Source: Notolepis coatsorum | Taxonomy: Eukaryota; Chordata; Actinopteri; Aulopiformes; Paralepididae | Reading direction: 5' to 3' | DNA: 64,000 nucleotides | Assembly (NCBI GenBank): GCA_963971535.1 | Contig: OZ020590.1 | Span: forward strand, 153,368,034-153,432,033 | Shown: positions 12,392-61,310 of the stretch, one piece after another | Position numbering within the stretch: position 1 is the stretch's first letter | Layout of the letters: the number at the start of each line of letters is the position of its first letter | Translations under genes and position numbers: made by a program | The notes under the pieces: model-generated | Seen by the model: the letters and a program-made list of their open reading frames with translations, nothing else | Database searches by the model: none | Told to the model about the DNA's origin: nothing

Positions 12392-12469
12392 CTGGAGGGA
12401 GGCAGAATAATGACATGAATAGTTGTAATTGCTGTCACCATTGGAAAGCCACCAATTTTAAGAATTCAC

Positions 12470-29179: not shown

Positions 29180-29261
29180 CTGGAGGGAGGCAGAATAATA
29201 ACATGAATAGTTGTAATTGCTGTCACCATTGGAAAGCCACCCATTTAAAGAATTCACACAT

Positions 29262-41940: not shown

Positions 41941-43301
41941 TGTAACTGAGGGGTACAATTCCCTGACTGTATTGATAAGTATGGTATCATTAAACCACTA
42001 CCGCTTTATGTACTTTAACTACTGGCCATACAGTACACGATATCTAAATATGATGAACACTTTCCACAATGAAATCGGTTCCAGTCAAAGGTAATAATCA
42101 AATATTTAATGGAGCAAAAGGTACATAGAATATTTATCTTACATTTATCATTTGAATGCACTTGTAAGGCAAATGAGTACTCGTAGGCAAGTCAACACTG
42201 AATGTCCAATCTCTGGTTACGCAGGAAGCAAGTATACAACCTGGCTCTTAGGGAATTACATCTATGGTACAATTAATGATATAGCGGGATATTCTGGAGG
42301 GGGTCCTCCCGGTTGTAAGCCGGTAGGGGGGGTAGGAGAGCCGTCGGTAGTAGACCGTCTGGTCAACGATATCTATGGAGACTTCAAGTACAGAAGACAG
42401 TGCAATAGACTCTTGATCCGCAGATGAATACACCTTGGTTCTCTTGTAGGCTGTAGCTCCACAATGAAGAAGAAGCTAGGCGACCTCAGTCTCTCTGAGC
42501 GCCGACTCAACTTGACTCCTCTCGGGGGTAAATCCAACACTCACAGGCGTCGGCGATTATCCGCTCCACAAATCACAGTACCAAAGCAAATATATATTCC
42601 AGCCGCATAGGGCTCAGCAGTCGTCGGGTAGGTAATCCAGTGTACATGTCCCTCGGTCCTCGCCTAGATCTCCTCGGATGAAAGCGCCATGTGGTCGGCC
42701 CAACCTGGATAAGACTCTAGATAACACGAGGAAGCGTTGGAGATGCTGGTCACTTTAGAACTCTAACCGCACGATGCACCATACACGATAGACTATTATT
42801 ACTTGATAGAAATACGTCGCACTCGACGGTACAGTGCCAAACTCTGACAATTCAGTTATTAATTCGCACGAGGTCTCAATGCTATTCTAAGGCCAAACAG
42901 GCCATACTTCACCGCACGTCGTATCGTGGGTGAGGCTTCACGTTCTGTTACTAAGTTGGGAAGAAGGGTAAGAGACTTCTACATTTACTTGCGCCATATT
43001 TATATGCACGGTGAACAAATAGTGCCACTCTCATTTCGGTAGCCGTATCCCTGAGCGGAGCCGGGGCTAGTACGGACATGTCTCGTCGGTACCTTTGAAC
43101 TTGACGCCAGGGGCTGGTCCCCTGGCGCCTGGTCCTTTGTCCAATAAGAGAATGAACTATTATGGGCTATAGTAGGCTAAAGGGATATTCCGTGTATATG
43201 TACAAGGAATATACAAGGGATATCAAACGACATACAAATACTATTCAATATATATCCATAAATAAATATATATATTCGGTTTAATCTGATCCTTCGTAAC
43301 A
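41941..43301 (-). repeat. BEL/Pao 3' LTR
   Basis: 1361 bp, minus-strand ends TGTTACGAAGG... and ...CCTCAGTTACA. The 91-aa and 61-aa ORFs inside it are LTR shadows. Confidence 0.95.
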
Positions 43302-43314
43302 GCCGCCCCCTAAT
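43302..43314 (-). other. BEL/Pao polypurine tract
   Basis: Minus strand reads 'agggggcggc' directly before the 3' LTR. This is the expected place for plus-strand DNA priming. Confidence 0.75.
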
Positions 43315-43394
43315 TAGTCCCACCTAATTAGCTAAGCAGAGACAGATTAACCGCACTGTCCACTACTCAATGTCCGCTGTGAGGGTCAGTCAGT

Positions 43395-46300
43395 TCACAA
43401 AGTCATGGGGTCATGGTCGTCATCGATAGTATCGGGGAGCCTTGGCAGTTCTATTAGCCTCGCCACGGGTCGGGTGTAGGTCCGCCCTTGGACGAGCACT
43501 TCAGCTGCTCGGACCTTTCCATCGGCACCGGTGATCACTTTGCTTACGCGGCCAGCCGGCCACATAGCTCGGGGTAGTGACTGGTCGATAATCATGACGA
43601 CTGTTCCTTCTGTCAAATTGTCTCTCTCTTTCACCCATTTCTGGCGGGTCTGTAGAGACGGTAGGTAGTGGAGTAGGAAGCTGTTCCAAAACTTGTCAGC
43701 CAATACTTGACTGTACCTCCACATTCTTCGGCCGTTCGCTTCTTCAGGCCTGTACATTGTCTGGGGTAGCGCGGGGTCCAGCCGCCCCATCAAGAGTGTG
43801 TTGGGGGTGACTGGGTCGACATCTTCTACATCACTTGAGACGTAACCGAGGGGCTTTGAGTTCAATACTCCCTCGATCTCCGTGAGGACTGTCATTAAGA
43901 CTTCTTCCGCCACGGTCTGGGCCCCAAGCACGGCGTACAGGGCTGTCTTTATAGAACGTCCTTCTCGTTCCCAAGTTCCACCGAAGTGAGGTGCGTTCGG
44001 GGGATTAAACTGGAAGTCAATCTGGGATGGAGCGAGGTGGGTCTTAAGTTCTGGGCCCATAGCTTGGAAGCTCTCTCTCAGCTCTCTTTCTCCGCCTTTG
44101 AAGTTTGTCCCGTGATCAGACAATAATGTAGACGGTTTTCCTTTCCGTGATGTGAATCTTCGGAAGGCCATAAGGAATGAGTCTGTGCTCATGGTTGGAA
44201 GGAGTTCGATATGTATCGCTCTGGTGGTCATGCATTTGAATACAATACCCCACCGCTTCTCGGTTCCTCTTCCTTTCTTTATATACAGCGGGCCGAAACA
44301 GTCCATACCGGTGGAGTGAAAAGGCTTGTCGCCGAGTCGGAGGCGACAGGGAGGTAGGTCAGCCATCCGGGGTATACTGGGCTGGGCTCGCCACTTACGA
44401 CAGTCTAGACAGGTTCGCTGGAAGCGCCGCACTGCTTCTCTCCCTTGCAGTATCCAATAACGGCGTCTGATCTCCGCAAAGACTCTCTCTGCCCCTGCGT
44501 GGTGCACATCCTCGTCGTATTTCTTTATGATCAGCTCGGTGACCTTGTGTCGGCTGTTCAAGACTATCGGGTACTTGACGTCATCCGGTAAGTCTGGGGC
44601 TCTCCGCAGACGACCACCCACTCTGATGAGACTATGGGCGTCGCTCTCGGGGGCTAGGTGGAGCAGTCTGCTGTCTGATGGGACGGGCTTTGCTCCCTGT
44701 AGACAGTCTAGCTCATCGGGGAATGAGTCTCTCTGGGCTCGTTGTAGTAGAAGAAGTTCTGCTTCTTCGTAGTCAGCTGCTGAAATGTCAGTCGTGGGCT
44801 GAACCTCTGGGTGGTGCCACAGAAATGTCTTTAGCTGCGCACTCTGTAGGGTGAGGCAATCGTCTATGTCGGGGTCTGTGGAGACGAGTGTGTTCAATCC
44901 ACAGAACATAGGTTTCTTGTTTTCGGCCTCCTCTTTACTCGCCTCCCGTGGGGTGGGTGTAGGCCACTCTTCTTCGGGGAGCTTGAGAAACTCTGGTCCG
45001 TCACTGTAGAGGTTGTGACGGGTGAGGTCATCCAGGGACATTCCCCGGGTGATGACGTCAGCTGGGTTGTGTTTGGTGTCCACATACCTCCAGCTCGCTA
45101 CTTCTGTTAACTCTTGAATCTCGGTGACTCTGACTCCCACGAAGACCTTGTATCTGCACGAATCAGACCGGATCCATGTGAGTACTGTCGTGGAGTCTGA
45201 CCACAAGATTGTTCTTTGCACCGGGATGGTGAGTTCACGTTGGATTAACGTGGCGAGCTGCGCTCCTGCTAGGGCTGCGCAGAGCTCTAGACGCGGGATA
45301 GATTGTTGCTTTCGTGGGGCTATTCTTGAGCGAGCCAGGATGAAAGCAGTATGTATTTCTCCTCCCTCCTCTCGGGCACGCAAGTAGGCCACCGAACCGT
45401 AGGCTACTTCGGAGGCGTCGCTGAATACGTGCAGGTCCATCTTGCATGTCTCTGGCCTCACTGTGGGTGGGAAGTAGCTGCGGCGTATGTTAACACCTGG
45501 GAGTGAGCGGAGTTCCGTCTCCCACTCTCTCCATGTGGATGCAAGGTGTTCGGGTATGGGATCGTCCCAGCCCTGGTCCTTGTCCCATAGCGCTCTTACA
45601 ATCATCTTTGCCCTGGTGGTGTAAGGTAGAATACATCCCAACGGGTCATATTGTCTGGCGAGTGTTCTGTATACACTCCGTCTGGTGGTCGGTATTGCCG
45701 TCGACCTTCCCTGCTCCTTGGTCAGGGGTTTGTGTCTATAATGGAGCGAGTCTGTTTTGAAGCGCCAGACTAGTCCTAGTGTCATTTCTTGGGCTTCTCC
45801 TGGGATGGTCGCCATCCAGGTGTCGCTGCTCGCTGCCTTGTCCTCGGGGGAGAGGCTGCGCAATACTTGCGGGTCGCTGCTGGCCCACTGCCTGAGATCA
45901 AAGCCGCCTTTGATCAGGGAGGCGCGGAGCTTGAGTAGAAGAGCCTCGGCTTCTTCTGGCGTCGAGACGCTTTGTAAACAGTTGTCCACGTAGAAACTAT
46001 TTGTCACACTTTGTCGGACCTCTTCATCTGCTGCTGGGTCCTCTGCGACGTGTTTTTGTAGTGCAAACGTAGCACAGCATGGGCTGCATGTGGTTCCGAA
46101 AGGGAGGACTTCCCATTGATAGATGGCTGGGTGCTCATCTCCGATCCTCTCTCTCCATAGGAACCGCAGCAGGGGCTTGTCCTCCTCCACTAGTCTCACC
46201 TGCAGGAACATCCCTTTGATGTCGCCGCTGATAGCCACCTTGTCCTGGCGGAAGCGTAGTAGCACGCCTAGTAGAGAGGGGCCGAGTGTTGGGCCGGGCA

Positions 46301-49300
46301 AGAGCTCTTTATTCAGATTTTGTGATCCGATCTGGTAGCTGCAGTTAAACACAATACGATCCTTGCCGTTGTGGTGGACCTTGTGGTGCGGCACGTACCA
46401 TGATTCGGTCGTCTGATCGGCCTCTTTAATGTCAATTTTCTTTATGTGTCCCGCTGTGATTAGCTTGTTAATCTCAGCGCGGTACACAGTCTCTTGAGCG
46501 GGGTCTTTGGCTAGGCGCCGCTCTGTGTTCAATAGATACCGCTCCGTCGCTTCTTTTGTGGCGTGAAAGGTGGGCATTCCCTCTCGCCTCAGGAGTGGAG
46601 TTGCGTATCTCATCACTCCGTTGACTGTGACTCTCTTTGTCCCTTGCTCGAGGAGGGCTATAGCGTAAATATCTTCCTTAGAACGAATGTCTTTCTTTTC
46701 GTTCTTAAAGGGCATTGTCTCTAGTGTCCATAGCCTCTCGACATGCTGCAGGAGAGTGGTGTCTTCTTCTGTCGCTCTGGAGTGGAGGCAGCTAGTGGCT
46801 GCTGTTCGGTTAAGAGACTTGGCGAGGGGGCCTTGTAATGTCCATCCTAGGCGGGTCTCGACTGCTGCAGGACAACCTCTGGGTCCTGTATGGACCCGGT
46901 CTATCGGGACTATGAGGTCTGCATGGTCGGAGCCTATCAGCAGGGTCGGGGTGGCACCGTCTATGAGCGGGATAGGTAGTTGACGCAGGTGCACATATTT
47001 ATCCATCAGCTTGGCGATGGGGTAGGTGTACTGCGATAGTCCTATTTCTTGGCTGGTGAAAGCATTAGTAATCCTATACCGTCTCTCTGGCTGCCCGCTT
47101 GCTGCGATAGTGAAGGAGACATTCTCGCCCTTTATCGTCTTTAGATCTCTTCTTATTGTCCGAATCGTCATCTGGTTTTCGCTCCCCCGCAGCCCCAGCT
47201 GGGCCGCAGCGGACGCGAGGAGAAGGGTCTTCTCTGACCCGTCATCAAGGACGGCGTAAGTGTCCATGACCTTATCTTGGTAACTCAGTGTTACGCGGAC
47301 CACCTTTAAGAGCACCTGGGCGCCCCCGCTGCTAGCGGAGTCAATGTACATAACACTTGCCTTTGTGCTGCTGGATGGTGCAGGCTTTCTTCTGTTACTG
47401 TCGTGTAGGACATCTAGGTGGGCTCCGTCACACCGACTACACCTCTTCTTTAGGCGGCACTCGGCTGCCATGTGACTGCGCGCACATCGGTAACAGTGCC
47501 TGTTGGACTTTATCCAGTGACTCACTTCTTCAGCGGTCATCTTCTTGAACAGGTCACATTGTGACAACCAGTGTTCCTTTTCGCAGTACGGGCACACCAT
47601 CTTCCACTTCTCTTTCGTCGAGGGGGTACTGTGGTTCTTGCTGCTCGGTACTGATTCTGATTGGTGCATGACAGTCACCAATCTTCGGCCATCGTTTGCT
47701 CTCCTAGGTCCCTCTCTGGAGCTTGGTGTGCTCCGCACGAACGTATCCAACCGTAGGCTGCTGACTTCTCTCGCCAGGAAGTCGGCTAGGTCTAGGAGGG
47801 ATGGCTCGGGACCGTTAGGATCACGGTGGTCTCTTTGCCACCTGAAGCGCTCCTGTCGGGCGGGCGGCAGCTTCTCTAAAATCCTCTCGACATTCGAGTT
47901 TGCGTATAGTTCGTGCATACCCTTTTCTCGTTGCGCCCCCAGCATCCCTACCAGGGATTGTACTTTGATAGACAGGTCGTCTAGTGAGCGATTGTCTGTT
48001 GCTGGGGGTAGGCGGTCAATATGCCTTATCTCTTGTATTACGTAATCCCATATACGTCCATATCTTTGGTCTAGTGCTGCTAGAGCCGCGGTGTATGGGG
48101 TCGTAGAGGTGGCATAAGCTAGCGCTATGTTGTGCGCTCTGGGCACTTTCAGGTGCTTCAATAGGATAGCATACTTGTGGCGTTCATCAGCTACATCCAC
48201 CATCATTGTCTCTAAGCACATCCGTAGCTCCGTGTACTGTGCTCGGTTCTCATGGGTGAAGTCTGGAAACGTCGGTGTGCCAATGTATGACGCCGTGGAT
48301 GGCTGGCACATCGGTGAGCGTTGGAAGAGAGGCCTCCTAGGCGAGTCTCCTCTTACGCCTCTCGGTGGGCTGGTACCGGCAGGGTACCATGGCCCGCTGG
48401 TCCAGGTGCTATTCCTCGGGACTGGTCGTGCGTCATGCTCACCCGTGAATAGAGTCGGGGGTCTGTAGCGCAGAGCCGCGGGGGTATAGCCTGGGCTGTA
48501 CTGGACCTCCTGGTCCTGTGGAGTACTGTGCTGCTGTCGGGCTTGGCTCTCCTCCTCTCCCTCTTCTTCCTCTGTCAGGTCATCTAGATCCTGTAGTCGT
48601 CTATTTAGCCTCTCCGCGGTGTACGCCGTTCCTTCCTTGTAGCTGGGTCTCACTGGGACCAGTCGGGGAAGGAGTTCGGAGGGGGGTATAGGCTCTCTCT
48701 GGTGGTCGGGCTCAGGGTCGCTTAATCGGTTAGGGGAGGGTGCCCTTGACCCGTGTCTTGACGAGGCCCTGGAACCCCTTGTGGAGGGAGGGGGTGTTGC
48801 CCTGGCGATCAGCTGCTCCATTAGCTGCGCTTGTAATCGATCGCGCTCGGCTTCGCGCTTGGTGAGAGCGATGTCGCGCTTTGCTTCTCTCTGGGCACCA
48901 GCAGCGGCACGCTGGGTGTCGGCCCGGTCTCTTGCCATATTCTCTTCCGTCTGAAGGCGTCTCATCTCCAGACGTATACGCTCTTCGTCGCTCCGTTGCT
49001 GCGCTTGAATGCGTTCTCTTTCCATGGTAGAATGTTCGCGCTCACTAAGCGTCTGTGCTTGGAGCCGATCGCGCTCTGTGGAGGCTGCTAGGCTGGCGAG
49101 GAACGCCTGTGCCAGCATCTTGTCCGCCTCGCTGGGGGAAGACGCTGGTTGAGGTGATCCGCTCCTGGCAGTACTCGTTGGGGATGCGTTCTCCTGCGGG
49201 GAGTCCTGGAGCTCTATCTCCTCGGCGCTCTCCTCATCTTGTTCCGTGCAGAGTTCCATCTCTGGAGGGTTGTCTTCCTCCCGGAGCTCTCCGGGAACTA

Positions 49301-49601
49301 CTTCTTCGGTCTTGGCGGGGGGTAAAGTCGTGTCAGTTCCCTCCTGGTCCCCACCGTGAGCTTGGTCAGTTACATTAGAACCCACTAGAGCCTCTGTGGT
49401 CGGGGTATCCTGGTTGATAGGGTCGGACATAATTTTACTTTCTACTTTTACCGCGTTTACCGTTTGTAGAAGGCTAGGTAGTATACTGGCAGCGTAATCC
49501 TCTAAGTACTGAGGTGGCTGCCGTCTACGCTGCGGGCGTTCTACTTTAGGAGGACCGTTTCGTGGAGTGTTCATCATAGGCCATTTCAATATTAATACCA
49601 C
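43395..49601 (-). CDS. gag-pol: BEL/Pao Gag-Pol polyprotein
   Basis: 2068 aa in one frame; the first Met lies about 45 bases inside the 5' LTR edge. Domains by approximate residue: acidic/proline N-terminus; long charged coiled coil, 155-280; Gag capsid-like (DUF1759-type), 440-630; Cys/His knuckles, 675-735; aspartic protease (DUF1758-type) with AVLDDGSEKTLL, 784; RT 1080-1260 with SGDIKGMFLQV and FYVDNCLQS (YVDN in place of YVDD); RNase H/peptidase-A17 region with FSDASEVAYG and WSDSTTVL; integrase with HHAG..C..C finger and catalytic D, D, E in GMDCFGP (1765), SDHGTNF (1828) and GGTWERE (1875); DUF5641-type C-terminus with WPAGRV. It makes the particle, copies RNA and integrates cDNA. No stops or frameshifts are seen. 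Confidence 0.95.
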   Translation of the reverse strand: MVLILKWPMMNTPRNGPPKVERPQRRRQPPQYLEDYAASILPSLLQTVNAVKVESKIMSDPINQDTPTTEALVGSNVTDQAHGGDQEGTDTTLPPAKTEEVVPGELREEDNPPEMELCTEQDEESAEEIELQDSPQENASPTSTARSGSPQPASSPSEADKMLAQAFLASLAASTERDRLQAQTLSEREHSTMERERIQAQQRSDEERIRLEMRRLQTEENMARDRADTQRAAAGAQREAKRDIALTKREAERDRLQAQLMEQLIARATPPPSTRGSRASSRHGSRAPSPNRLSDPEPDHQREPIPPSELLPRLVPVRPSYKEGTAYTAERLNRRLQDLDDLTEEEEGEEESQARQQHSTPQDQEVQYSPGYTPAALRYRPPTLFTGEHDARPVPRNSTWTSGPWYPAGTSPPRGVRGDSPRRPLFQRSPMCQPSTASYIGTPTFPDFTHENRAQYTELRMCLETMMVDVADERHKYAILLKHLKVPRAHNIALAYATSTTPYTAALAALDQRYGRIWDYVIQEIRHIDRLPPATDNRSLDDLSIKVQSLVGMLGAQREKGMHELYANSNVERILEKLPPARQERFRWQRDHRDPNGPEPSLLDLADFLAREVSSLRLDTFVRSTPSSREGPRRANDGRRLVTVMHQSESVPSSKNHSTPSTKEKWKMVCPYCEKEHWLSQCDLFKKMTAEEVSHWIKSNRHCYRCARSHMAAECRLKKRCSRCDGAHLDVLHDSNRRKPAPSSSTKASVMYIDSASSGGAQVLLKVVRVTLSYQDKVMDTYAVLDDGSEKTLLLASAAAQLGLRGSENQMTIRTIRRDLKTIKGENVSFTIAASGQPERRYRITNAFTSQEIGLSQYTYPIAKLMDKYVHLRQLPIPLIDGATPTLLIGSDHADLIVPIDRVHTGPRGCPAAVETRLGWTLQGPLAKSLNRTAATSCLHSRATEEDTTLLQHVERLWTLETMPFKNEKKDIRSKEDIYAIALLEQGTKRVTVNGVMRYATPLLRREGMPTFHATKEATERYLLNTERRLAKDPAQETVYRAEINKLITAGHIKKIDIKEADQTTESWYVPHHKVHHNGKDRIVFNCSYQIGSQNLNKELLPGPTLGPSLLGVLLRFRQDKVAISGDIKGMFLQVRLVEEDKPLLRFLWRERIGDEHPAIYQWEVLPFGTTCSPCCATFALQKHVAEDPAADEEVRQSVTNSFYVDNCLQSVSTPEEAEALLLKLRASLIKGGFDLRQWASSDPQVLRSLSPEDKAASSDTWMATIPGEAQEMTLGLVWRFKTDSLHYRHKPLTKEQGRSTAIPTTRRSVYRTLARQYDPLGCILPYTTRAKMIVRALWDKDQGWDDPIPEHLASTWREWETELRSLPGVNIRRSYFPPTVRPETCKMDLHVFSDASEVAYGSVAYLRAREEGGEIHTAFILARSRIAPRKQQSIPRLELCAALAGAQLATLIQRELTIPVQRTILWSDSTTVLTWIRSDSCRYKVFVGVRVTEIQELTEVASWRYVDTKHNPADVITRGMSLDDLTRHNLYSDGPEFLKLPEEEWPTPTPREASKEEAENKKPMFCGLNTLVSTDPDIDDCLTLQSAQLKTFLWHHPEVQPTTDISAADYEEAELLLLQRAQRDSFPDELDCLQGAKPVPSDSRLLHLAPESDAHSLIRVGGRLRRAPDLPDDVKYPIVLNSRHKVTELIIKKYDEDVHHAGAERVFAEIRRRYWILQGREAVRRFQRTCLDCRKWRAQPSIPRMADLPPCRLRLGDKPFHSTGMDCFGPLYIKKGRGTEKRWGIVFKCMTTRAIHIELLPTMSTDSFLMAFRRFTSRKGKPSTLLSDHGTNFKGGERELRESFQAMGPELKTHLAPSQIDFQFNPPNAPHFGGTWEREGRSIKTALYAVLGAQTVAEEVLMTVLTEIEGVLNSKPLGYVSSDVEDVDPVTPNTLLMGRLDPALPQTMYRPEEANGRRMWRYSQVLADKFWNSFLLHYLPSLQTRQKWVKERDNLTEGTVVMIIDQSLPRAMWPAGRVSKVITGADGKVRAAEVLVQGRTYTRPVARLIELPRLPDTIDDDHDPMTL

Positions 49602-49626
49602 TATATTAATATTACACTAATTACCC

Positions 49627-49643
49627 TCCGGCTCGAAGGACCA
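49627..49643 (-). other. BEL/Pao primer-binding site
   Basis: Minus strand tggtccttcgagccgga begins two bases from the 5' LTR and is complementary to an arginine-type tRNA 3' end. It primes first-strand synthesis. Confidence 0.75.
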
Positions 49644-49645
49644 AT

Positions 49646-51006
49646 TGTAACTGAGGGGTACAATTCCCTGACTGTATTGATAAGTATGGTATCATTAAAC
49701 CACTACCGCTTTATGTACTTTAACTACTGGCCATACAGTACACGATATCTAAATATGATGAACACTTTCCACAATGAAATCGGTTCCAGTCAAAGGTAAT
49801 AATCAAATATTTAATGGAGCAAAAGGTACATAGAATATTTATCTTACATTTATCATTTGAATGCACTTGTAAGGCAAATGAGTACTCGTAGGCAAGTCAA
49901 CACTGAATGTCCAATCTCTGGTTACGCAGGAAGCAAGTATACAACCTGGCTCTTAGGGAATTACATCTATGGTACAATTAATGATATAGCGGGATATTCT
50001 GGAGGGGGTCCTCCCGGTTGTAAGCCGGTAGGGGGGGTAGGAGAGCCGTCGGTAGTAGACCGTCTGGTCAACGATATCTATGGAGACTTCAAGTACAGAA
50101 GACAGTGCAATAGACTCTTGATCCGCAGATGAATACACCTTGGTTCTCTTGTAGGCTGTAGCTCCACAATGAAGAAGAAGCTAGGCGACCTCAGTCTCTC
50201 TGAGCGCCGACTCAACTTGACTCCTCTCGGGGGTAAATCCAACACTCACAGGCGTCGGCGATTATCCGCTCCACAAATCACAGTACCAAAGCAAATATAT
50301 ATTCCAGCCGCATAGGGCTCAGCAGTCGTCGGGTAGGTAATCCAGTGTACATGTCCCTCGGTCCTCGCCTAGATCTCCTCGGATGAAAGCGCCATGTGGT
50401 CGGCCCAACCTGGATAAGACTCTAGATAACACGAGGAAGCGTTGGAGATGCTGGTCACTTTAGAACTCTAACCGCACGATGCACCATACACGATAGACTA
50501 TTATTACTTGATAGAAATACGTCGCACTCGACGGTACAGTGCCAAACTCTGACAATTCAGTTATTAATTCGCACGAGGTCTCAATGCTATTCTAAGGCCA
50601 AACAGGCCATACTTCACCGCACGTCGTATCGTGGGTGAGGCTTCACGTTCTGTTACTAAGTTGGGAAGAAGGGTAAGAGACTTCTACATTTACTTGCGCC
50701 ATATTTATATGCACGGTGAACAAATAGTGCCACTCTCATTTCGGTAGCCGTATCCCTGAGCGGAGCCGGGGCTAGTACGGACATGTCTCGTCGGTACCTT
50801 TGAACTTGACGCCAGGGGCTGGTCCCCTGGCGCCTGGTCCTTTGTCCAATAAGAGAATGAACTATTATGGGCTATAGTAGGCTAAAGGGATATTCCGTGT
50901 ATATGTACAAGGAATATACAAGGGATATCAAACGACATACAAATACTATTCAATATATATCCATAAATAAATATATATATTCGGTTTAATCTGATCCTTC
51001 GTAACA
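49646..51006 (-). repeat. BEL/Pao 5' LTR
   Basis: Same length and sequence as the LTR at 41941-43301 in every stretch compared. Contains promoter and poly(A) signals by position; none was assigned exactly. Confidence 0.95.
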
Positions 51007-51366
51007 CAAATGATACCATTAGCAATTGAAAGCCCATCAAAAACGTAGCTAACATCAACCGTCAACATATAACGAAAATCATCATCCATAGCAATCAATA
51101 CCTTATTGGCTGCGTGCCAGTATAAGAGAACATCGATTGTATTGTGTCTTTGTCCTTTTTCTTGTTATATTGTCTTGTGTTAGACAACTATTTTACTTGC
51201 TTGAATTGACCGCAAAGTCAAGACAGCCATCCATCAAGTCACGTCGGGTCTCAAAGAAAGGCGGAAACACGTCACCGGATATTAAGTGGGAAACAAGTCT
51301 TGTGAGACTAAATAATTGCACAAGCAAAAAGAAATGCAAAACATGTTAATTGATATTTCCATTACA
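51007..51366 (-). repeat. Candidate ERV 3' LTR (proximal part)
   Basis: Minus strand begins TGTAATGG at 51366 directly after a purine tract, aaaagggtggagt (51367-51379), as expected for PPT then U3. The BEL/Pao element interrupts it at 51006. LTR identity cannot be proven because the 5' LTR is missing. Confidence 0.4.
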
Positions 51367-52087: not shown

Positions 52088-53419
52088 TCACTCTCCATCT
52101 TCAGTTTTACGCAGTTGAATGGCTTCAACACCCTGTTCAGAATCAGAGTCAGAGTCGCTGAGCAACTCGAGGATTGTATCAGCAGATGCATACTTGGAGT
52201 GAACGTATATCTGACTATGGAGAAGGGTGGTAGTGACAGTACATGCGATAGAGCGTGTCAATATGCTGCGCGCGCAAGGAACAACACAACAGGCGCACAG
52301 AGCGACAAGGCCGACTAGGGAGACGAGAGCTGCCATGAGAGCTAGGGCGAGGGCCTTATATTTACCGAACGTGTTCGCAAGCCAGGAGGTCAGGGAAGTG
52401 TCAACGCCAGAGTTAACGGACATCTCTGTCCTGAGGGAGCGCAGGCCTTCTAAGGCTCTAGCTACTGAGCCGTCTGGGGCCGTCGAATTAGGGATGTAAG
52501 TGCAGCAACTGTCTGAGAACATTACGCAGACGCCACCCTTTTCGGCCAGTAGCATGTCGAGGGCCATCCTATTTTGAAAGGCCATAGTGGAGGTGGCGTG
52601 CAGTTGTTCGGCCAGCCCTTCCAGGGCATCAAGGGTATGATTTAGGAAGATTTGTTGATTAAAAGATATGTAATTCAACCACGCTACATTCTTTGATACG
52701 GTAATGATAGGGAAGAGTGCCTCGATACCCGCCCAAACCTCGTTGCGCGCCTTGAATTCATCAGGGACCCCACGCGGAACTCCAATAGCGTCAATATACA
52801 CACGGGCATCCATGGAGCCTCTGGGGGTGAGAGAGCGACGCATACGGCTGATGTCAGGTTTATCAGGAGAAACGGTGCCAATAGCGACAGGAAGCACCAA
52901 CATAACGGGGGTACAGGTGCCAGTCCAGTTAGCGGGGAGGACCTGGATTAATTTAACACGCGAGCCACAAGCCCACCAGACGTCAGCTCTAGGTCTGCTG
53001 GAGGAGTTGAATGAGGCCAGAGTGGGGGTATAGGCAGGAGACTCATCGAGGCCGGGAATTAGCGTAGAGGTACCATTAGCGTGCATATGCCAAGTGTAGA
53101 CGCAATACGGGAAACGACCTCTGAAGCGGCCTTGGCCAAGTCTATGTGCAGAGAAACACTCATAGACACCGCGGGCAAATTTAGCAGGGGGTGGGGCAGC
53201 GGGTTCAGTTGGGGTGGGTAACAGCAGTAGTGTGGAGCATATGCCGTGGGGCAGAGTTAGGGAAGGCTTGTCAGCTTCCAGGAGACATCGCACACCGTTG
53301 AGGGATGAGGTAGAGTTAAGGGGATAAGGGGATGTGATGAGAGTGGGTTTGCTAGTAGCACAAATATAGCATTCAGCACCGTTGGCGTGCTGAGCCGCGG
53401 TATATGTTGCCCATTTCAT
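52088..53419 (-). CDS. env: ERV Env, SU C-part and transmembrane subunit
   Basis: 443 codons. Near the start is a CxxC pair (C17, C20) and several N-glycosylation sites (for example N35, N116, N138, N164). A furin-type RMRR cleavage site is at 192-195. In the TM subunit: heptad-rich helix, then the segment from Q282 to G296 corresponding to the immunosuppressive-like region, CX6CC at C298/C305-C306, membrane anchor about 356-383, and a cytoplasmic tail ending in an acidic Ser/Asp run (421-428). Role: receptor binding and membrane fusion at the virion surface. The first Met is internal to the SU frame, which stays open about 26 codons further upstream; the signal-peptide part lies in the preceding ORF in a different frame, so this copy is broken. 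Confidence 0.85.
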   Translation of the reverse strand: MKWATYTAAQHANGAECYICATSKPTLITSPYPLNSTSSLNGVRCLLEADKPSLTLPHGICSTLLLLPTPTEPAAPPPAKFARGVYECFSAHRLGQGRFRGRFPYCVYTWHMHANGTSTLIPGLDESPAYTPTLASFNSSSRPRADVWWACGSRVKLIQVLPANWTGTCTPVMLVLPVAIGTVSPDKPDISRMRRSLTPRGSMDARVYIDAIGVPRGVPDEFKARNEVWAGIEALFPIITVSKNVAWLNYISFNQQIFLNHTLDALEGLAEQLHATSTMAFQNRMALDMLLAEKGGVCVMFSDSCCTYIPNSTAPDGSVARALEGLRSLRTEMSVNSGVDTSLTSWLANTFGKYKALALALMAALVSLVGLVALCACCVVPCARSILTRSIACTVTTTLLHSQIYVHSKYASADTILELLSDSDSDSEQGVEAIQLRKTEDGE

Positions 53420-54591
53420 CCACTGATTTTCATTAGAGTTATCAGTCTCAAAGCAATTGTCTCTAGTGTGTCCTGGAAGTCTAACACGCGACCCCGCACT
53501 TTAACAGAGTTACTCTTATCCTTAGGACCGTCTGTCACAGCTTGGACGACTGTCGGGGGTCCAAAGGTAGTGCGTAGTACGGGGCGAACGATGAGTGTGA
53601 GTTCCTGATATATGTCGGCCGCGCCAGGTTTATCTATAGCACACCAGTATTTCCCACCGTCGTTCATCTGTACGTTGCGGATTACGATCTGGAAGGAATT
53701 CCCGATCGATGCTGGTATTAGGGAATAAGAGCTAGCCGACGGTAGGGCAGTAGATACTATGATATCTGCTGTCTTGCAAGGATCCCTGCAGAAATACCTG
53801 GGGACCATGCTAGAACCGTAGTTTGTAAAAGGCCCACACCTAAATGCTGAGGTGGTGCCCTGGATCAGAACGTAACGCTTGGGGGGTGTAGCATGGCTGG
53901 AGGCGAGAGGGATGGGGGCGATGACGAGGGCAACAAGCGCCAGTGTGAGGTGAGAGAGGCCTATGGACTGTGTGCCGCGGCGTAAGTGGCGTGGGAGAGG
54001 GATGGGATAAAAAGGGATGGGAGGGGGAGGTGGAGGGGTAGAGTCTGCAGCACGTGGCGCACTCAGCGCCGCGAGCGAGCTGGGTGACAAATTCAGTGCC
54101 GCGAGCGAACGGGAGTCGGTGTCTAAGGGTGTGATTAAAGGGGGCGTGGGGGACGGAGGTGTGGGTGGCGGAGCCAGGGGTGTATTAGCGCGCGGGGCAC
54201 AGGGGAAATTCATGATAACGGACACCATACGTACCGCTAGAATGACACAGATGGTGATTGAGATGGAGATTCCCGCACACATCAATATGACGATCAGAGA
54301 CGTACATTCGTTGTGTGGTGTCATTTTATAGGCCCACCTGTCAAAAAACATTTCTGGAACACCAAACCAAATCAAAGGAGATATCACCAGTGTTAAAGAC
54401 AAGGAACAAAATAACATTGACAGTCGTGTGTGTCGGTCTAGGAATCGTATTCTGCCTTTGCTGTCTTCACCTCTGTCGCCGGGCATGTCTTTCTGTCGTC
54501 CGTGCAGGGGACGTTTTTGAATAGAGTGGGATGTGGGAGAGAGAGGGAGAGAGAGAGCTATTTCACAGTATATGTTTTCGGAGGGAGACAA
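53416..54591 (-). CDS. ERV Env leader with captured CD300/pIgR-like Ig V domain
   Basis: 391 aa, placed where Env should begin. Residues 58-77 and 98-127 are hydrophobic, 129-200 are Pro/Ser/Ala-rich, 208-233 look like a second signal or anchor segment, and 237-336 form an immunoglobulin V-type domain: C252, the extra pair in YFCRDPC (C268, C272), a NSFQIVIRNV strand, and the DxGxYWC motif (D311, W316, C317). The YFC-DPC pair is the mark of CD300/CMRF35-like and pIgR V domains of vertebrates, so the source is probably a host immune receptor. The stop overlaps the next ORF's ATG (ATGA). Its frame differs from the SU frame, so in this copy the Ig domain is not joined to SU/TM unless by frameshifting or an RNA-level event. 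Could also be a separate accessory protein. Confidence 0.75.
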   Translation of the reverse strand: MSPSENIYCEIALSLPLSPTSHSIQKRPLHGRQKDMPGDRGEDSKGRIRFLDRHTRLSMLFCSLSLTLVISPLIWFGVPEMFFDRWAYKMTPHNECTSLIVILMCAGISISITICVILAVRMVSVIMNFPCAPRANTPLAPPPTPPSPTPPLITPLDTDSRSLAALNLSPSSLAALSAPRAADSTPPPPPPIPFYPIPLPRHLRRGTQSIGLSHLTLALVALVIAPIPLASSHATPPKRYVLIQGTTSAFRCGPFTNYGSSMVPRYFCRDPCKTADIIVSTALPSASSYSLIPASIGNSFQIVIRNVQMNDGGKYWCAIDKPGAADIYQELTLIVRPVLRTTFGPPTVVQAVTDGPKDKSNSVKVRGRVLDFQDTLETIALRLITLMKISG

Positions 54592-54753
54592 GGGAAGAGG
54601 GTCACAGTGTTCGTGGTAGATTGTTCAGGTGTCAGGTGTCGTAACAGTGTTTATTATTAGAGGAAAAAGGGAGGAGGTGTACGAGCGGGAGCGAGAGGAG
54701 GGGATTTTGGGCTCTTCTTTGGAAAAGGATCAGACGGTAGAGCAGCGCACGGC

Positions 54754-55884
54754 TCACACGCTGGGTGGGGGACGAAGCGCTGGCCTGCTGCGCGTCTGAT
54801 ACGGGTGCCTTGGAGATGCGGGGGGAGTGTGCAGAGGAGTTGGCCCGGGGGTCACTGACGGGGTCGCTGCAGGCTGTGGGTTGACCTCTGCAGCTTGTGG
54901 ATCGGCCTCTGCAGCCGTGGGGGTGGTCGCTGGTTGGCTGGGTTTTGGTGGTGGCACCTTCCTGCAGTGATGTACGTGGACCCAGGAGGGTCGCTCAGCC
55001 ACCTTCACGGCGGTGTGTGTCGTCAGCAGGACCTGGAAGGGTCCCAGCCACCGTTCGGAGTTCCACTGCTTCCGGCGGAAGTTTTTGATGGTCACGAAAT
55101 CCCCTGGTTGGATTTGATGGATTGGAGAAGAGGCTGGGTTGGGTAGCGCCGCCTCTACCTGAGATCTTATGTTGAAGAGAGATCTGGAAAGATTGATACA
55201 GTATGTTAGCAGTTGATCCTCACATAAGCCTGTGGAGGGAAGGGGGGGGCTCGGAGGACCTACTCCCACGGAAGGGGGAACGGCGAAAAGGGTTTCATAG
55301 GGAGACAGGCCTGTGCGATTTCTTTTCCTCATTCTCATATACATGAGGGCCAGGGGCAAGACTTTAGTCCATGGCAGCCCTGTCTCTGCACATATTTTAG
55401 CCAGTTTGTTTTTCAGGCTCTGGTTTTCGCGCTCAACGGCGCCGCCACTGGCCGCATGATAGCCACAGTGGTACCTGACGTCAAACCCCAGGTAATTGCT
55501 AACCTCGGTCAAGGCCTGATTCACGAAGTGACTTCCGTTGTCGCTTGACACGCGAGACACTAACCCCCAGCGTGGAAAAATCTCTGTCAGGAGTGCTTTG
55601 GCCACTGTGGCAGCAGTGGCGTGTTTGGCGGGGAAAGCCTCCACCCATTTTGACCACATATCAACGATAACAAGACAATATTTCTTGTTTTCAGATGGGG
55701 AGAGCTCGATAAAGTCCATCATGAGATGTTCAAATGGCCGTGTGGGTTTCTGGTGAGCCGCCGGGGTGGTTTTAATACCGCGTGCTATGTTGTGGTTCGC
55801 ACATATGACACAGTTTCTACAATAATCGCGTGCTGCGACAGAGAAACCTTTGGTGAACCATCGAGAAGTGATCTCACTTAGCAT
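54754..55884 (-). CDS. pol: ERV integrase
   Basis: 376 codons from the first Met; the frame is open about 100 bases further upstream, where the H-x3-H half of the zinc finger lies, and it continues in phase into the RNase H ORF across a single TAG (55987-55989). C-x2-C is at residues 25-28. Catalytic triad D57 (MMDFIE), D115 (SDNGSHF), E151 (AVERENQ), i.e. D-x57-D-x35-E. The C-terminal GPF-type module has RWLGPFQVLL and HVHHCRKVP, as in gamma-type retroviruses, followed by a Pro/Ala-rich extension. It inserts viral DNA into chromosomes. Intact apart from separation from the upstream pol. Confidence 0.88.
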   Translation of the reverse strand: MLSEITSRWFTKGFSVAARDYCRNCVICANHNIARGIKTTPAAHQKPTRPFEHLMMDFIELSPSENKKYCLVIVDMWSKWVEAFPAKHATAATVAKALLTEIFPRWGLVSRVSSDNGSHFVNQALTEVSNYLGFDVRYHCGYHAASGGAVERENQSLKNKLAKICAETGLPWTKVLPLALMYMRMRKRNRTGLSPYETLFAVPPSVGVGPPSPPLPSTGLCEDQLLTYCINLSRSLFNIRSQVEAALPNPASSPIHQIQPGDFVTIKNFRRKQWNSERWLGPFQVLLTTHTAVKVAERPSWVHVHHCRKVPPPKPSQPATTPTAAEADPQAAEVNPQPAATPSVTPGPTPLHTPPASPRHPYQTRSRPALRPPPSV

Positions 55885-55986
55885 AGCTCCCTTTGATGCA
55901 TGGTCACGGCCATGGCTTAGCTTGCAATATGGGAGGAAAAGTGTTTTTGGAAGACATGGTTTAGAATTGGGGCCAAGCCAAATGTT

Positions 55987-57297
55987 CTATGTGCAGTGTG
56001 CGCCTGCTTTAGTCCAAATGTCCTTCTCTGCTTGTGTGGCGTTGCGCTGAATGTGAAGTAGGTCCTTCCTGTCAGGGGTGTGTGTGTTTGACTCAGGCGC
56101 TGTCTGTACTAAAGTCACTGTTACAGGGGCTCCTTCCCTTTGAGGAAGTGGAGCGGTGCCTGCTAAAGGAGCCCCATCTTCAAATGGAAGTGTGGAGGCG
56201 CTTTTAGCGGCAGCATCTGCTCGAGCGTTTCCTTTAGAAATGCTGTCCGTCTGGTTGCTATGAGCAACGCATTTGCAGACAGCAATTTTGGTAGGTAGCA
56301 GAATGGCTTCTAACAAATTTTTTATTTTGTCATGGTGTTGAATGTGTTTGCCAGATGAGGTGAGAAACCCTCTGTGTTTCCATAGCGCCCCAAAATCGTG
56401 CGTTACCCCAAAACAGTATCTGCTATCTGTGAAGATATTTGTTGTTTTGCCTTTTGCCACAACACATGCATGTGTGAGAGCTATTAGCTCGGCGGCCTGT
56501 GCAGAATAATGATGAGGCAGAGGTCCAGAAATCACATTACCATGGTCAGAGACAACCGCAAACCCTGCCCTGGCACGGCCCGTGGCAGGGTCTCTGGAGG
56601 CAGAGCCATCAACATACAATACAAGATCAGGATTAGACATTGGTACAGATGACAAATCAGGCCTGGGTGTACACAGAATATTGATTTCCTGCACACAATG
56701 GTGTGGTTCTCCGTCCATGGGCCCTGGAAGCAGGGTTGCTGGGTTTAGAGGCCCACATCTCTTAACAGTAACATTTGGCAGATCTAATAGCGTCGTGTGA
56801 TATCTCAGCCATCTCTGAGCTGTTAAGTGTGAGGTTTTGTGCTCACTCAGGATGTGTGCCACAGCGTGTGGGACGAGGAGGAGCAGCTCTGTGTAACCGA
56901 CAATATCCTGTGAAGCGGTTATTGCGCGTTCTGCTGCCGCCACCGCTCGAAGGCACGGTGGCAGCCCTCGCGCCACAGCGTCTAGTTTGGTTGAGAAGAA
57001 ACCTACAGGCCGCAATCTGTCGCCATGTTGCTGTAGGAGCACAGAGGTCATGCAGCCATTTTTCTCATCAACAGCCTGTGTAAAAGGCTGGTCTGGGTTA
57101 GGCAGGCCCAACGTGGGTGCACTTTGTAAAACAAATTTCAGTGTCACAAAAGATTGTTCCGCCTCAGGGGTCCATTCAATTCGGCCCTGAGCATTGAGGC
57201 CTTTGCCATGTATGAGGGAGCTTAGAGGCATTTCAATAGCCGCGTAATTTGGAATGTATGTTCTGCAATACGAGCAGATTCCGAGGAAACTCATCAT
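55987..57297 (-). CDS. pol: ERV RT connection and RNase H
   Basis: 436 codons. The N-terminal part is the end of the RT (thumb: FLGICSYCRTYIPNYA and the EAEQSFVTLK block). The RNase H domain from about residue 225 has YVDGSASRD (first Asp), the AELIAL Glu, TDSRYCFGV and the ARADAAAKSA end with conserved Asp. It removes the RNA strand during reverse transcription. The stop is an in-frame TAG before integrase, and the start overlaps the RT ORF in another frame because of a one-base change in an A-run (plus strand T-run 57346-57349). Confidence 0.85.
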   Translation of the reverse strand: MMSFLGICSYCRTYIPNYAAIEMPLSSLIHGKGLNAQGRIEWTPEAEQSFVTLKFVLQSAPTLGLPNPDQPFTQAVDEKNGCMTSVLLQQHGDRLRPVGFFSTKLDAVARGLPPCLRAVAAAERAITASQDIVGYTELLLLVPHAVAHILSEHKTSHLTAQRWLRYHTTLLDLPNVTVKRCGPLNPATLLPGPMDGEPHHCVQEINILCTPRPDLSSVPMSNPDLVLYVDGSASRDPATGRARAGFAVVSDHGNVISGPLPHHYSAQAAELIALTHACVVAKGKTTNIFTDSRYCFGVTHDFGALWKHRGFLTSSGKHIQHHDKIKNLLEAILLPTKIAVCKCVAHSNQTDSISKGNARADAAAKSASTLPFEDGAPLAGTAPLPQREGAPVTVTLVQTAPESNTHTPDRKDLLHIQRNATQAEKDIWTKAGAHCT

Positions 57298-58390
57298 ATT
57301 TTTCTTCGTTATCGGGCGTGGAAGGTCGATAATTGCTGCTACACGTTTTGGATTTGCCCTCCGGTGTGATTATGTGACCAAGGAATGTGACTTCTTGTGA
57401 CACAAACTGGAGTTTTGAGAGGCTTGCCTTATGACCCTCTGCCGCCAGGTGGTGCAGTAGTTTCAGGGTGTCTGCAGTGCATTGTTCCTTTGTGTCAGAA
57501 CAAACCATGATGTCATCTACGTAAAATAACAAGGCAGAGCCTGGGCCCAAAGTAAGGGGTCCCAGACTGTCCCTAATAGCAGCACCGTAGATGGATGGTG
57601 ACGAATGAAAACCCTGGCAGAGACAGGTGAAAGTGTAAGGCCTGCCATCAAAATTAAAGGCAAACCAGTATTGACTGTCTGGGTGTACGGGGATTGAGAA
57701 AAAGGCGTTAGACAGATCCACTACTGAAAACCACTTCGACCCGGCCGGGATTTGTGACAATATGGTGTAGGGATTAGGAACGTCTGGTGCACGAGAATGG
57801 ACTGCCTCGTTCACCGCCTGTAGGTCTTGTACAAAACGCCACTCAACCGGTTTCCCTGCGTCTCTGATCTTTTTAACGGGGAAAATCGGTGTGCGCACTG
57901 GGGAGTCATTACACTGTACAATAACACCAGATTTCAGTAATGATTCAAAAACGGGGCGTATGCCATCCAAGGCCTCCTTTTTGAGTGGATACTGTGGTCT
58001 GTGAGGGCGAAAATCAGACTTTGGTGTGATGACTACGGGTTGGACATTTCTAATTAAACCCACATCATATGCCCCTGTTGCCCACAATTGTTCGGGCACC
58101 CCTTTAAGGTAGGGGGGTATTTCTGTGTTTAGAGAAATCAATGTGCTCCGGGGTGGGGGAGTGTCATCAAAAGGTATCTGAGAACATTTCACAGTTGGAA
58201 TGTATACGGGTGGAAACGTGAGTTTGTGTGTGTCAGACGCAGGTGAATACAACACCTGTGGGTTGGGTGTAAACTGCCAATCACAGATGTTTGTACACAT
58301 GGTCATATATGAAGCCAGGTCTCGCCATGCTTCTGTCCTGTGTCTAGCGAGGGGGATGTGCGGTTTTACGTTTCCTGCTACGGAATACAA
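57233..58390 (-). CDS. pol: ERV reverse transcriptase, N-terminal portion
   Basis: 385 codons, of which about 346 are native; the rest is out-of-frame after the A-run. RT blocks: WRFVQDLQAVN, FSVVDLSNAFFSIPV (D225), CLCQGFHSSPSIY and FYVDDIMVCS (YVDD at 290-293). The frame is open upstream of the chosen Met, so protease and Gag were probably removed by the deletion that joined BEL/Pao sequence at about 58590. Gamma-like by the LPQGF-equivalent and YVDD context. Confidence 0.87.
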   Translation of the reverse strand: MYSVAGNVKPHIPLARHRTEAWRDLASYMTMCTNICDWQFTPNPQVLYSPASDTHKLTFPPVYIPTVKCSQIPFDDTPPPRSTLISLNTEIPPYLKGVPEQLWATGAYDVGLIRNVQPVVITPKSDFRPHRPQYPLKKEALDGIRPVFESLLKSGVIVQCNDSPVRTPIFPVKKIRDAGKPVEWRFVQDLQAVNEAVHSRAPDVPNPYTILSQIPAGSKWFSVVDLSNAFFSIPVHPDSQYWFAFNFDGRPYTFTCLCQGFHSSPSIYGAAIRDSLGPLTLGPGSALLFYVDDIMVCSDTKEQCTADTLKLLHHLAAEGHKASLSKLQFVSQEVTFLGHIITPEGKSKTCSSNYRPSTPDNEEKYDEFPRNLLVLQNIHSKLRGY

Positions 58391-58555
58391 ACGGCACTGA
58401 GTGGGTGTCTCTTCCTAAAGAGTGAGTAGCTGGTTGTTCTTTGCTAGTTTGTTTCTTTTCTCGGCGTTCAGCCTCTTCTTTCCACACATAGAACCATTTT
58501 TCATGTGTGTCACAGAGGTAAACGGCGCTACTCTCAATGCGTTTATTTTTCATTA

Positions 58556-58594
58556 GTTCTATGCGTTTCAGAATGTTCTATGCGTTTAAGAATG
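58556..58594. other. Recombination junction with 19-bp tandem duplication
   Basis: Two copies of 'gttctatgcgttt(c/a)agaat' (58556-58574, 58575-58593) lie exactly where ERV sequence gives way to BEL/Pao gag ('agaatgttcgcgctcact'). This looks like templated filler DNA at a break repaired by end joining. Confidence 0.6.
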
Positions 58595-59161
58595 TTCGCG
58601 CTCACTAAGCGTCTGTGCTTGGAGTCGATCGCGCTCTGTTGAGGCTGCTAGGCTGGCGAGGAATGCCTGTGCCAGCATCTTGTCCGCCTCGCTGGGGGAA
58701 GACGCTGGTTGAGGTGATCCGCTCCTGGCAGTACTCGTTGGAGATGCGTTCTCCTGCGGGGAGTCCTGGAGCTCTATCTCCTGGGCGCTCTCCTCTTCTT
58801 GTACCGTGCAGAGTTCCATCTCTGGAGGGTTGTCTTCCTCCCGGAGCTCTCCGGGGACTACTTCTTCGGTCTTGGCGGGGGGTAAAGTCGTGTCAGTTCC
58901 CTCCTGGTCCCTACCGTGAGCTTGGTCAGTTACATTAGAACCCACTAGGGCCTCTGTTGGCGGGGTAGCCTGGTTGATAGGGTCGGACATAATTTTACTT
59001 TCTACTTTTACCGCGTTTACCGTCTGTAGAAGGCTAGGTAGTATACTGGCAGCGTAATCCTCTAAGTACTGAGGTGGCTGCCGTCTACGCTGCGGGCGAT
59101 CTACTTTAGGAGGACCGTTTCGTGGAGTGTTCATCATAGGCCATTTCAATATTAATACCAC
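58588..59161 (-). pseudogene. BEL/Pao Gag N-terminal fragment
   Basis: 191 codons, differing from residues 1-191 of the full-length polyprotein at only a handful of sites (for example E/D and T/P changes). Includes the start of the charged coiled coil and stops at the junction. Confidence 0.9.
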
Positions 59162-59205
59162 TATATTAATATTACACTAGTTACCCTCCGGCTCGAAGGA
59201 CCAAT

Positions 59206-60562
59206 TGTAACTGAGGGGTACAATTCCCTGACTGTATTGATAAGTATGGTATCATTAAACCACTACCGCTTTATGTACTTTAATTACTGGCCATACAGTA
59301 CACGATATATGAATATGATGAACACTTCCCACAATGAAATCGGTTCCAGTCAAAGGTATTAATCAAGTATTTAATGGAGCAAAAGGTACATAGGATACTT
59401 TACATTATTCTTTGAATGCACTTGTAAGGCAAAGGAGTATGCATAGGCAAATCAACACTGAATGTCCATTCTCTGGTTACGCAGGAGGCAATTATACAAC
59501 CTGGCTCTTAGGGAATTATATCTATGGTACACTGGTGATATAGCGGGATATACTGGACGGGTCCTCCCGGTTGTAAGCCGGCAGGGGGGGTAGGAGATCT
59601 GTCGGTAGTAGAACGTCTGGTCAACGATGCCTAGGGAGACTCCGAGTACAGGAGACAGTGCGATAGACTCTTGATCCGCAGACGAATACAGCTTGGTTCT
59701 CTTGTAGACTGTAGCTCCACAGTGAAGAAGAAAGCTAGTCGGCCTCAGGCTGTCTGAGGCGCCGACTCGACTTGACTCCTCTCGGGGTAAATCCAACACT
59801 CACAGGCGTCGGCGATTATCCGCTCCATAAACCACAGGACCAAAGCAAATATATATTCCAGCCGCAAAGGGCTATGCAGTCGTCGGTTATGTAATCCAGT
59901 GTACATGTCCATACGGTTCTCGCCTAGATCTCCTCGGGTGAAGGCGCCATGTGGTCGGCCCAGCCTGGATAAGAATCTAGCTAACACGAGGAAGCGTTGG
60001 AGATGCTGGCCACTTTAGAACTCTAACCGCACGATGCACCATACATAATAGACTATTATTGACTTAATAGAAATACGTCGCAATCGACGGTACAGTGCCA
60101 AACTCTGACAATTCAGTTATTAATTCGCACGCGGTCTCCATGCTCTATTCTGGGGCCAAACAGGCCATACTTCACCGCACGTTGTATCGTGGGTGAGGCT
60201 TCTACTTAGGGTAACAACTTGACTTCTGACTAAGTGCTTCTGTATTCAACTACGCTATATTTATATGCACGGTGAACAAATAGTGCCACTCTCATTTCTG
60301 TCGCCGTATCCCTGGGCAGGGCCGGGGCAAGTACAGACATGTCTTGTCGGTGACTTTGAACTTGGCTCCGGGGGCCGGTCCCCTGGCGCCTGGTCCGTTG
60401 TCCAATAGGAGAATGAGATATTATGGGCTATAGTAGGCTAAAGGGATATTCCGTGTATATGTACAAGGAATATACAAGGGATATCAAACGATATACAAAT
60501 ACTATTCAATATATATCAATAAATAAATATATATATTCGGTTTAATCTGATCCTTCGTAACA
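59206..60562 (-). repeat. BEL/Pao LTR of the truncated element
   Basis: 1357 bp, ends as in the intact LTRs; substitutions and small indels are scattered through it (for example 59310-59420, 60200-60240). The right flank begins gtagc; no partner duplication was found. Confidence 0.9.
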
Positions 60563-61310
60563 GTAGCAGTCCCTATAAGACAATGTATTGCTATTTCTGT
60601 ACATAATATCATAGAGCTGTAATTAACACAACACAAGGATTCAATGTGCCCGATGACATCACTGGTGGCCATTATTCAACCTCATTTACTCTCAATAACT
60701 GTCAAACTAAATTAATGTGTGCAACACTGTTGAGGGCTTTTGGATGTGCGTGAGATTATGTGCAAAATAAATCTGCATTGTTTTTTGGTGAAGTGCCCCT
60801 TTAAACACGGATGTTGCACTATCCCTAATCACTCTTAGAAAAATGGAATTGAGAAAGTTGAAAATCAAGAGTTTATTTCAAGCCAGTATTCTGCAGTAGG
60901 CTACTGTATGTAAAACCAGAGAGACAAGGTTCACTTCTATCAGTCTTATAATTTGCAGTATTGAAAACATGTTATATACATTCCTCCCTTTCAAAGGGAA
61001 ACTCCCATCTTTAAACAGAATCTGCACAGCATTTAGTCATTCCAATCATCTTCAATAGTTTCATCAATATCTTAATAATAGTTAAAAGCCCCAATATCTG
61101 ATTGTTGGTCAAACAACAAACACATATTGCAAAATGTCTCCACCTGTCTGCCAGAGGAGGTACTGGCTAAATAACTGTTTATTGTCAATATAGTCACAAA
61201 ATAATTGTGTTGTGACAAATAATTACTAAATTCCACGTAGTGATTCTCCATAAAGCTACAGGAGACACACTGATACATTTCACTACACAAGCACAGCCCT
61301 CCCCCTACAC
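60563..61310. other. No gene recognised
   Basis: AT-rich. A 'gtgcccctttaa' at 60786-60797 resembles the end of a TTAA MITE like the one at 40137, but the other end is not seen. Confidence 0.35.

Follow-up and report, generated by a model that had tools for sequence, protein, structure and literature searches.

The window analyzed here is a 64,000-nucleotide stretch of the genome of Notolepis coatsorum (contig OZ020590.1, positions 153,368,034 to 153,432,033), which contains an endogenous retrovirus (ERV) with a gamma-type envelope protein (Env). A V-type immunoglobulin (Ig) domain of the CD300/pIgR/TREM type occupies the receptor-binding slot of the surface subunit (SU) of this Env; in ordinary gamma-type Envs this slot holds a degenerate V fold. 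Compared with host V exons and with 48 Env receptor-binding domains (RBDs), the domain is nearer to the host exons, its affinities conflict with those of the Env backbone, and it is under purifying selection between copies. We consider it likely that a host pIgR/CD300-type V domain has replaced the RBD of a gamma-type Env in this family of fish ERVs.

The V domain and its copies

On the minus strand, 53416–54624 is an open reading frame (ORF) of 402 residues from stop to stop, and the plus strand of the same interval contains many stops. Residues 237–350 form a V-type Ig domain with the B-strand cysteine (FRC) and the motifs YFCRDPC and DGGKYWC. A second ORF (52088–53500, minus strand) lies downstream in another frame and overlaps the first by 85 bases (53416–53500); the V domain and the SU and transmembrane (TM) parts are out of frame with each other in the window copy. 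This second ORF matches TLV_coat (PF00429, E 1.7e-9) and carries the CX6CC motif of TM at 52502–52528 (minus strand). Its SU/TM homologues number 385 proteins at E ≤ 0.001, with a top identity of 53%. The V-domain signature with the extra cysteine of YFCRDPC, and its position upstream of a CX6CC Env, had been pointed out in an earlier note on this DNA, and both are confirmed.

The best solved relatives of the domain by sequence (phmmer against the PDB) are CD300 (2q87, E 1.8e-4) and pIgR (E 2.1e-4), as that note had proposed from the motifs. An AlphaFold model (predicted local distance difference test score, pLDDT, 76.2; predicted template modeling score, pTM, 0.69) has a V-set fold, and the first 23 of 50 rows of its structural matches are TREM2, CD300, pIgR or FcmR; no solved gammaretroviral RBD, of murine (MLV) or feline leukaemia virus (FeLV), is among the matches listed for this search. 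Of the 385 Env matches, 120 were listed and used, 80 of them with a usable N-terminal region by a motif rule of our own. Six rounds of jackhmmer started from the V domain reached 62 of these 80 regions, 47 over most of the domain, and control searches with one reversed and five shuffled sets reached none. A chance ORF is ruled out by the PDB matches together with this controlled search. Protein searches with the 402-residue ORF and its V part gave no match, and no relative was found on viral contigs with the SU/TM ORF, A6 or P0001 (an Env considered below) as queries.

The window copy is one of many. Within the 3.42-Gb genome from which the window comes, the ORF has 34 matches and the V domain alone 31 (taken at E ≤ 1). 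Fifteen of the latter, as listed, are env copies, spread over 12 contigs with 87–100% identity, and 11 of the 15 are a single open frame of 737–865 residues with V and SU/TM matches, some of them with stops in the leader; the SU/TM match is only partial in the C27 and C8:34.8 Mb copies. The earlier note had suggested looking for the same Ig segment in frame with SU/TM in other proviruses, and these copies provide it. Neither outcome named in the note as refuting, lack of a significant CD300/pIgR match or a host exon adjacent to this one copy, was observed. Further Env families are also present, namely B (49% in SU/TM), C (~43%) and D. The sister family B (L033–L046), with several open frames of 688–706 residues, has an intermediate-looking RBD with the motif KYICISPC and no F-position cysteine.

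The 16 other V matches lie outside env (seven on C13 at 16–19 Mb, six on C9, two on C43 and one on C44), and none coincides with an Env place among the matches listed. Eleven of these places were fetched (all but five on C9), and exon calls on them are our own, made without gene models. Ten read as V-type exons, two of which have the C-x3-C spacing of the window V domain; the place on C44 showed no V-like frame by the filter used. One exon, L010, is of the pIgR type, matching pIgR at 4.9e-21 and CD300 at 2.6e-9, with antibody fragments between and below, and scores 42.6 bits against Pfam V-set.

Substitution rates were estimated for three open copies (L002, L004 and L013), each against the diverged copy L009. 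The ratio of nonsynonymous to synonymous rates (dN/dS) is 0.16–0.18 in the V domain, 0.14–0.16 in SU/TM and 0.45–0.47 in the leader; the synonymous rate (dS) of the V domain (0.33–0.37) is above that of SU/TM (0.19–0.20). For L002–L009, the test of synonymous versus nonsynonymous changes in V gives a Fisher p of 2.4e-6, and V compared with the leader and with SU/TM gives p 0.065 and 0.83, respectively. Four close-copy pairs, which are not independent, have 2–4 synonymous and no nonsynonymous changes in V. The low dN/dS and the synonymous-only close pairs therefore indicate that the V domain has been kept as a protein.

Affinities of the domain and the Env backbone

The earlier note had described an Env leader ORF carrying an Ig V domain. 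The V domain in a gamma-type Env stands; it is not, however, an addition to the leader but sits in the RBD slot, where an Ig-V-like fold is usual according to PMC7683403 and our RBD comparisons. The RBD of EnvP(b)1 has an Ig-V-like core with loops and helices inserted between strands, and the origin of such loop extensions is described as untraceable for lack of sequence conservation; in the portion of that paper available to us, we found no statement on the origin of the core itself (PMC7683403). By sequence, the RBDs of ordinary fish Envs fall with EnvP(b)1; they have a cysteine pair in common with the window V domain, and their folds come closest to EnvP(b)1, followed by the V domains of TREM2/CD300/pIgR and Siglecs. 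A PDB search with Env set A4 was partly circular, as the set holds P0013, which we take to be a macaque Env resembling EnvP(b)1. We therefore used a repeat without primate Envs (13 rows, four without an organism label), in which the FeLV RBD appeared at E 0.07. An Ig-V-like fold in the RBD slot is normal for a gamma-type Env, and the host-type sequence is the unusual part.

An inherited RBD was compatible with percent identity (45 Envs plus the window), but bit scores, cysteines and trees speak against it. For the bit scores, ten host V rows and families B, C and D were added. In this set, the window V domain scores 40.1 and 38.3 bits against host exons L068 and L069, 31.3 and 30.3 against L070a and L071a, 24.7 against L073, and 21.7–11.5 against the five lower host rows. 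Its best score against 48 Env RBDs is at most 24 bits versus 40 for the host V exons, with P0018 at 23.7, P0001 at 15.1, family B at 11.9, P0002 at 11.6, and families C and D at ~0. The RBD of P0001 scores 29–38 bits against eight other Env RBDs and 24.4 against family B, and the family B RBD scores 25.1 bits against P0001 and 9.1 against the window V domain.

Cysteines at both the B and F positions are present in 10/10 host V domains and 2/2 window-family rows, but in 0/21 of the remaining Env rows; the B stretch is missing from P0001 and P0025, and P0018 has the F cysteine only. Both window-family rows have all four cysteines, the B–F pair and the extra C–C′ pair. The C-strand cysteine, in common with the window, is found in all 21 Env RBD rows and all ten host V domains, and the C′ cysteine in 20/21 Env RBD rows; three of ten host V domains have the latter in the same column and the others a few residues on.

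In the backbone tree (48 rows, two of 50 dropped as short), the window family groups with P0001 and family B with support 100/100, and with family B alone with 95/87. The domain tree has 33 rows (18 of the 45 Envs chosen for spread, one each of families B, C and D, ten host V and two window-family). It separates the ten host V domains, the window family and P0018 from 20 Env RBDs at 97/93, as expected for a domain with affinities to host CD300/pIgR-type genes. With 11 of the 33 rows dropped, the window V domain stands beside the host V domains at 93/93. The tests reject a constraint that joins it to P0001 and family B (p 0.0132; 0.0113 in the 22-row set), and also one that joins it to P0001 alone (p 0.0196 and 0.0108).

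Several results weigh against a host-type domain. Pfam V-set remains below its 26-bit gathering cut-off, with 19.2 bits (E 0.0014) for the whole ORF and 22.7 bits (E 1.2e-4) for the V domain alone. Percent identity, computed for the 45 Envs plus the window, does not set the domain apart as an outlier, and both domain trees bring long branches together. Positions of the window V domain inside and beside the host V domains are both compatible with the data (p 0.178 for a clade of host V alone; p 0.095 for host V together with the window).

P0018, an unrelated Env of 554 residues, may be a second case of capture, weaker than the window family. It combines a Pfam V-set match above the cut-off (30.2 bits) with TLV_coat in one protein (V-set matches at E ≤ 0.1 occur in five of the 120 Envs listed), and its V domain falls on the host side of the domain tree, as in the window family. 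However, its backbone belongs to another group (with P0011 and P0015, 99/98), it has no cysteine in the B column, and its V domain forms a long branch. A single backbone clade of P0018 and the window family is rejected (approximately unbiased, AU, test, p 1e-5; lnL 108 worse). Placing its V domain with P0011 and P0015 is rejected as well (p 0.0144), and with P0011 alone it is not (p 0.0552).

Origin and role of the domain

Most likely, a retrovirus of the window lineage would have acquired the processed transcript of a host gene of the pIgR/CD300-like kind, the putative donor, and one V domain, without introns, would have come to replace the RBD. The capture was probably long ago, because identity to the host V exons is only ~35%. 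The common fold of the old and new domains may have made the swap workable. The V domain would then serve as a receptor-binding module, attaching the virus through a ligand of pIgR/CD300-type V domains. CD300 and TREM domains bind phospholipids, and pIgR and FcmR bind immunoglobulin, and complexes of this sort are named in titles of the matched structures; candidate modes of attachment are thus lipid or immunoglobulin bridging. The earlier note had proposed host-domain capture. The host-like V domain, the in-frame copies and the disagreement of the domain with its backbone support this, with a host gene as the presumed donor.

A role in immune evasion rather than in receptor binding, with the domain acting as a decoy for pIgR/CD300 ligands either in soluble form or on the virion, seems rather unlikely to us. 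Among the named viral rows of the fold search are Ig-domain and haemagglutinin proteins from herpesviruses, poxviruses, adenoviruses and iridoviruses, and such proteins have roles in evasion. The V domain takes the place of the RBD, however, and the ~65 residues between it and the conserved part of SU in the copies listed are too few for another RBD.

All gamma-type RBDs could instead trace back to a single ancient V domain of the pIgR/CD300 type, whose sequence the window family and P0018 alone retained. The C and C′ cysteines shared by Env RBDs and the window, the nearness of ordinary fish RBD folds to host V domains after EnvP(b)1, and the host V clade with the window outside it (not rejected, p 0.178) are all consistent with this. 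We nevertheless judge it unlikely, as P0018 and the window family branch separately amid Envs with ordinary RBDs (AU p 1e-5), the same losses would be needed in several neighbours, and the RBD of P0001 is similar to that of family B and not to the window V domain.

The V domain might also have been gained second-hand, by recombination with another retrovirus, for example one like P0018, in which a host-type V domain was already present. Env recombination is common, as far as the part of PMC10536682 seen by us goes, and among the Envs compared the V domains of the window and P0018 are mutual best matches (24.3 and 23.7 bits). Two host exons score much higher than P0018 (40.1 and 38.3 versus 23.7 bits) and P0018 is a long branch, which makes this route improbable. 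Finally, an artefact of assembly, or a host exon that by chance lies next to a single provirus, would suit the different frames of the window copy, and is hardly credible given that the 15 env copies listed are spread over 12 contigs and 11 of them have one open frame with SU/TM.

Capture and replacement in the window family would bear on the origin of retroviral RBDs more widely. It is possible, although we lean against it, that the gamma-type RBD itself, in fish viruses as well as in EnvP(b)1 and the leukaemia viruses, arose from a captured pIgR/CD300/TREM-type V domain and was renewed at least twice, in the window family and P0018, by fresh host V domains.

Genomic setting and comparison with known systems

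The provirus is laid out on the minus strand as follows.

53965..54624, minus: Env leader region, ORF residues 1–220; first Met at 54486, two hydrophobic stretches (by eye) and a proline-rich stretch
53899..53964, minus: hydrophobic, signal-peptide-like stretch directly ahead of the V domain (by eye)
53569..53898, minus: Ig V domain of the CD300/pIgR/TREM type, occupying the receptor-binding slot of SU (profile, structure, tree and cysteine evidence)
53416..53568, minus: linker after the V domain, to the region of the frame break; single-frame copies exist
52088..53500, minus: remaining Env, C-terminal part of SU and TM, gamma type (TLV_coat, 385 homologues, CX6CC)
54754..55986, minus: pol integrase (rve 1.4e-16, MLVIN_C 9.6e-12)
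55987..57369, minus: RNase H part of pol (RNase_H 2e-22), with an in-frame stop between it and the integrase
57233..58414, minus: reverse transcriptase part of pol (RVT_1 7.5e-25), in a frame different from the RNase H part

With one frame change and one in-frame stop in pol, and with the divided env, the window provirus is a defective copy. No gag of this provirus was noted among window ORFs of at least 100 residues. On its pol side, the provirus adjoins a BEL/Pao gag fragment (labeled by eye) at 58588/58589, part of a second BEL-like long terminal repeat (LTR) and gag fragment at 58589–60563 with 90.5–92.7% identity to a first such element. The latter (41941–51006, minus strand, BEL/Pao-like by eye) is young, with LTR copies 99.93% identical and a 2073-residue open frame, and has ATTTG on both flanks, five bases that therefore represent a target-site duplication. 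The interval 51007–51366 was considered as part of a 3′ LTR of the provirus and ruled out: 51007–51335 is another repeat, and we therefore claim no LTR for the Env provirus. This 329-base repeat is 98–99% identical to 39 further listed copies (40 of 685 candidates were scored), 28 of which lie on C21 at 151–154 Mb, near the window. Elsewhere, the window contains a long tandem array in 30-base steps (17511–19595), open in several frames on both strands, and a block duplication with two zinc-finger ORFs that resemble each other (10593–12434 and 27612–29222, minus strand), presumably of a kind associated with teleosts.

No Env of this kind was found in a full-text literature search judged from listings, and an earlier description is possible; with that proviso, the earlier note's remark that it knew of no described fish retrovirus of this arrangement still holds. 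In the portion of PMC8672886 seen, the word "immunoglobulin" occurs twice, each time for host genes. The part of PMC4977317 consulted names cellular genes captured by fish ERVs, CNPase and a macro domain (Basta et al. 2009, as cited there). As is likely for the window family, these ERVs took up host genes; their captures are described there as additional reading frames, whereas in the window family a domain of Env itself would have been replaced.

From the RBDs of EnvP(b)1 (6W5Y), FeLV (1LCS) and Friend MLV, the window V domain differs in its cysteines: the 21 Env RBD rows are without the B cysteine (two lack the stretch) and 20 of them without the F cysteine, and the window V domain has both. 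The fish Envs offer a bridge between the gammaretroviral RBD core and host immune-receptor V domains, and a host-type V domain in the RBD slot makes a host-domain origin and renewal of retroviral receptor binding testable. The CD300/CMRF35-like, pIgR, FcmR and TREM receptors share with the window V domain the V-set fold, the B and F cysteines and the extra C–C′ pair; they differ in that the V domain of the window family is fused, in one frame, to a retroviral SU/TM.
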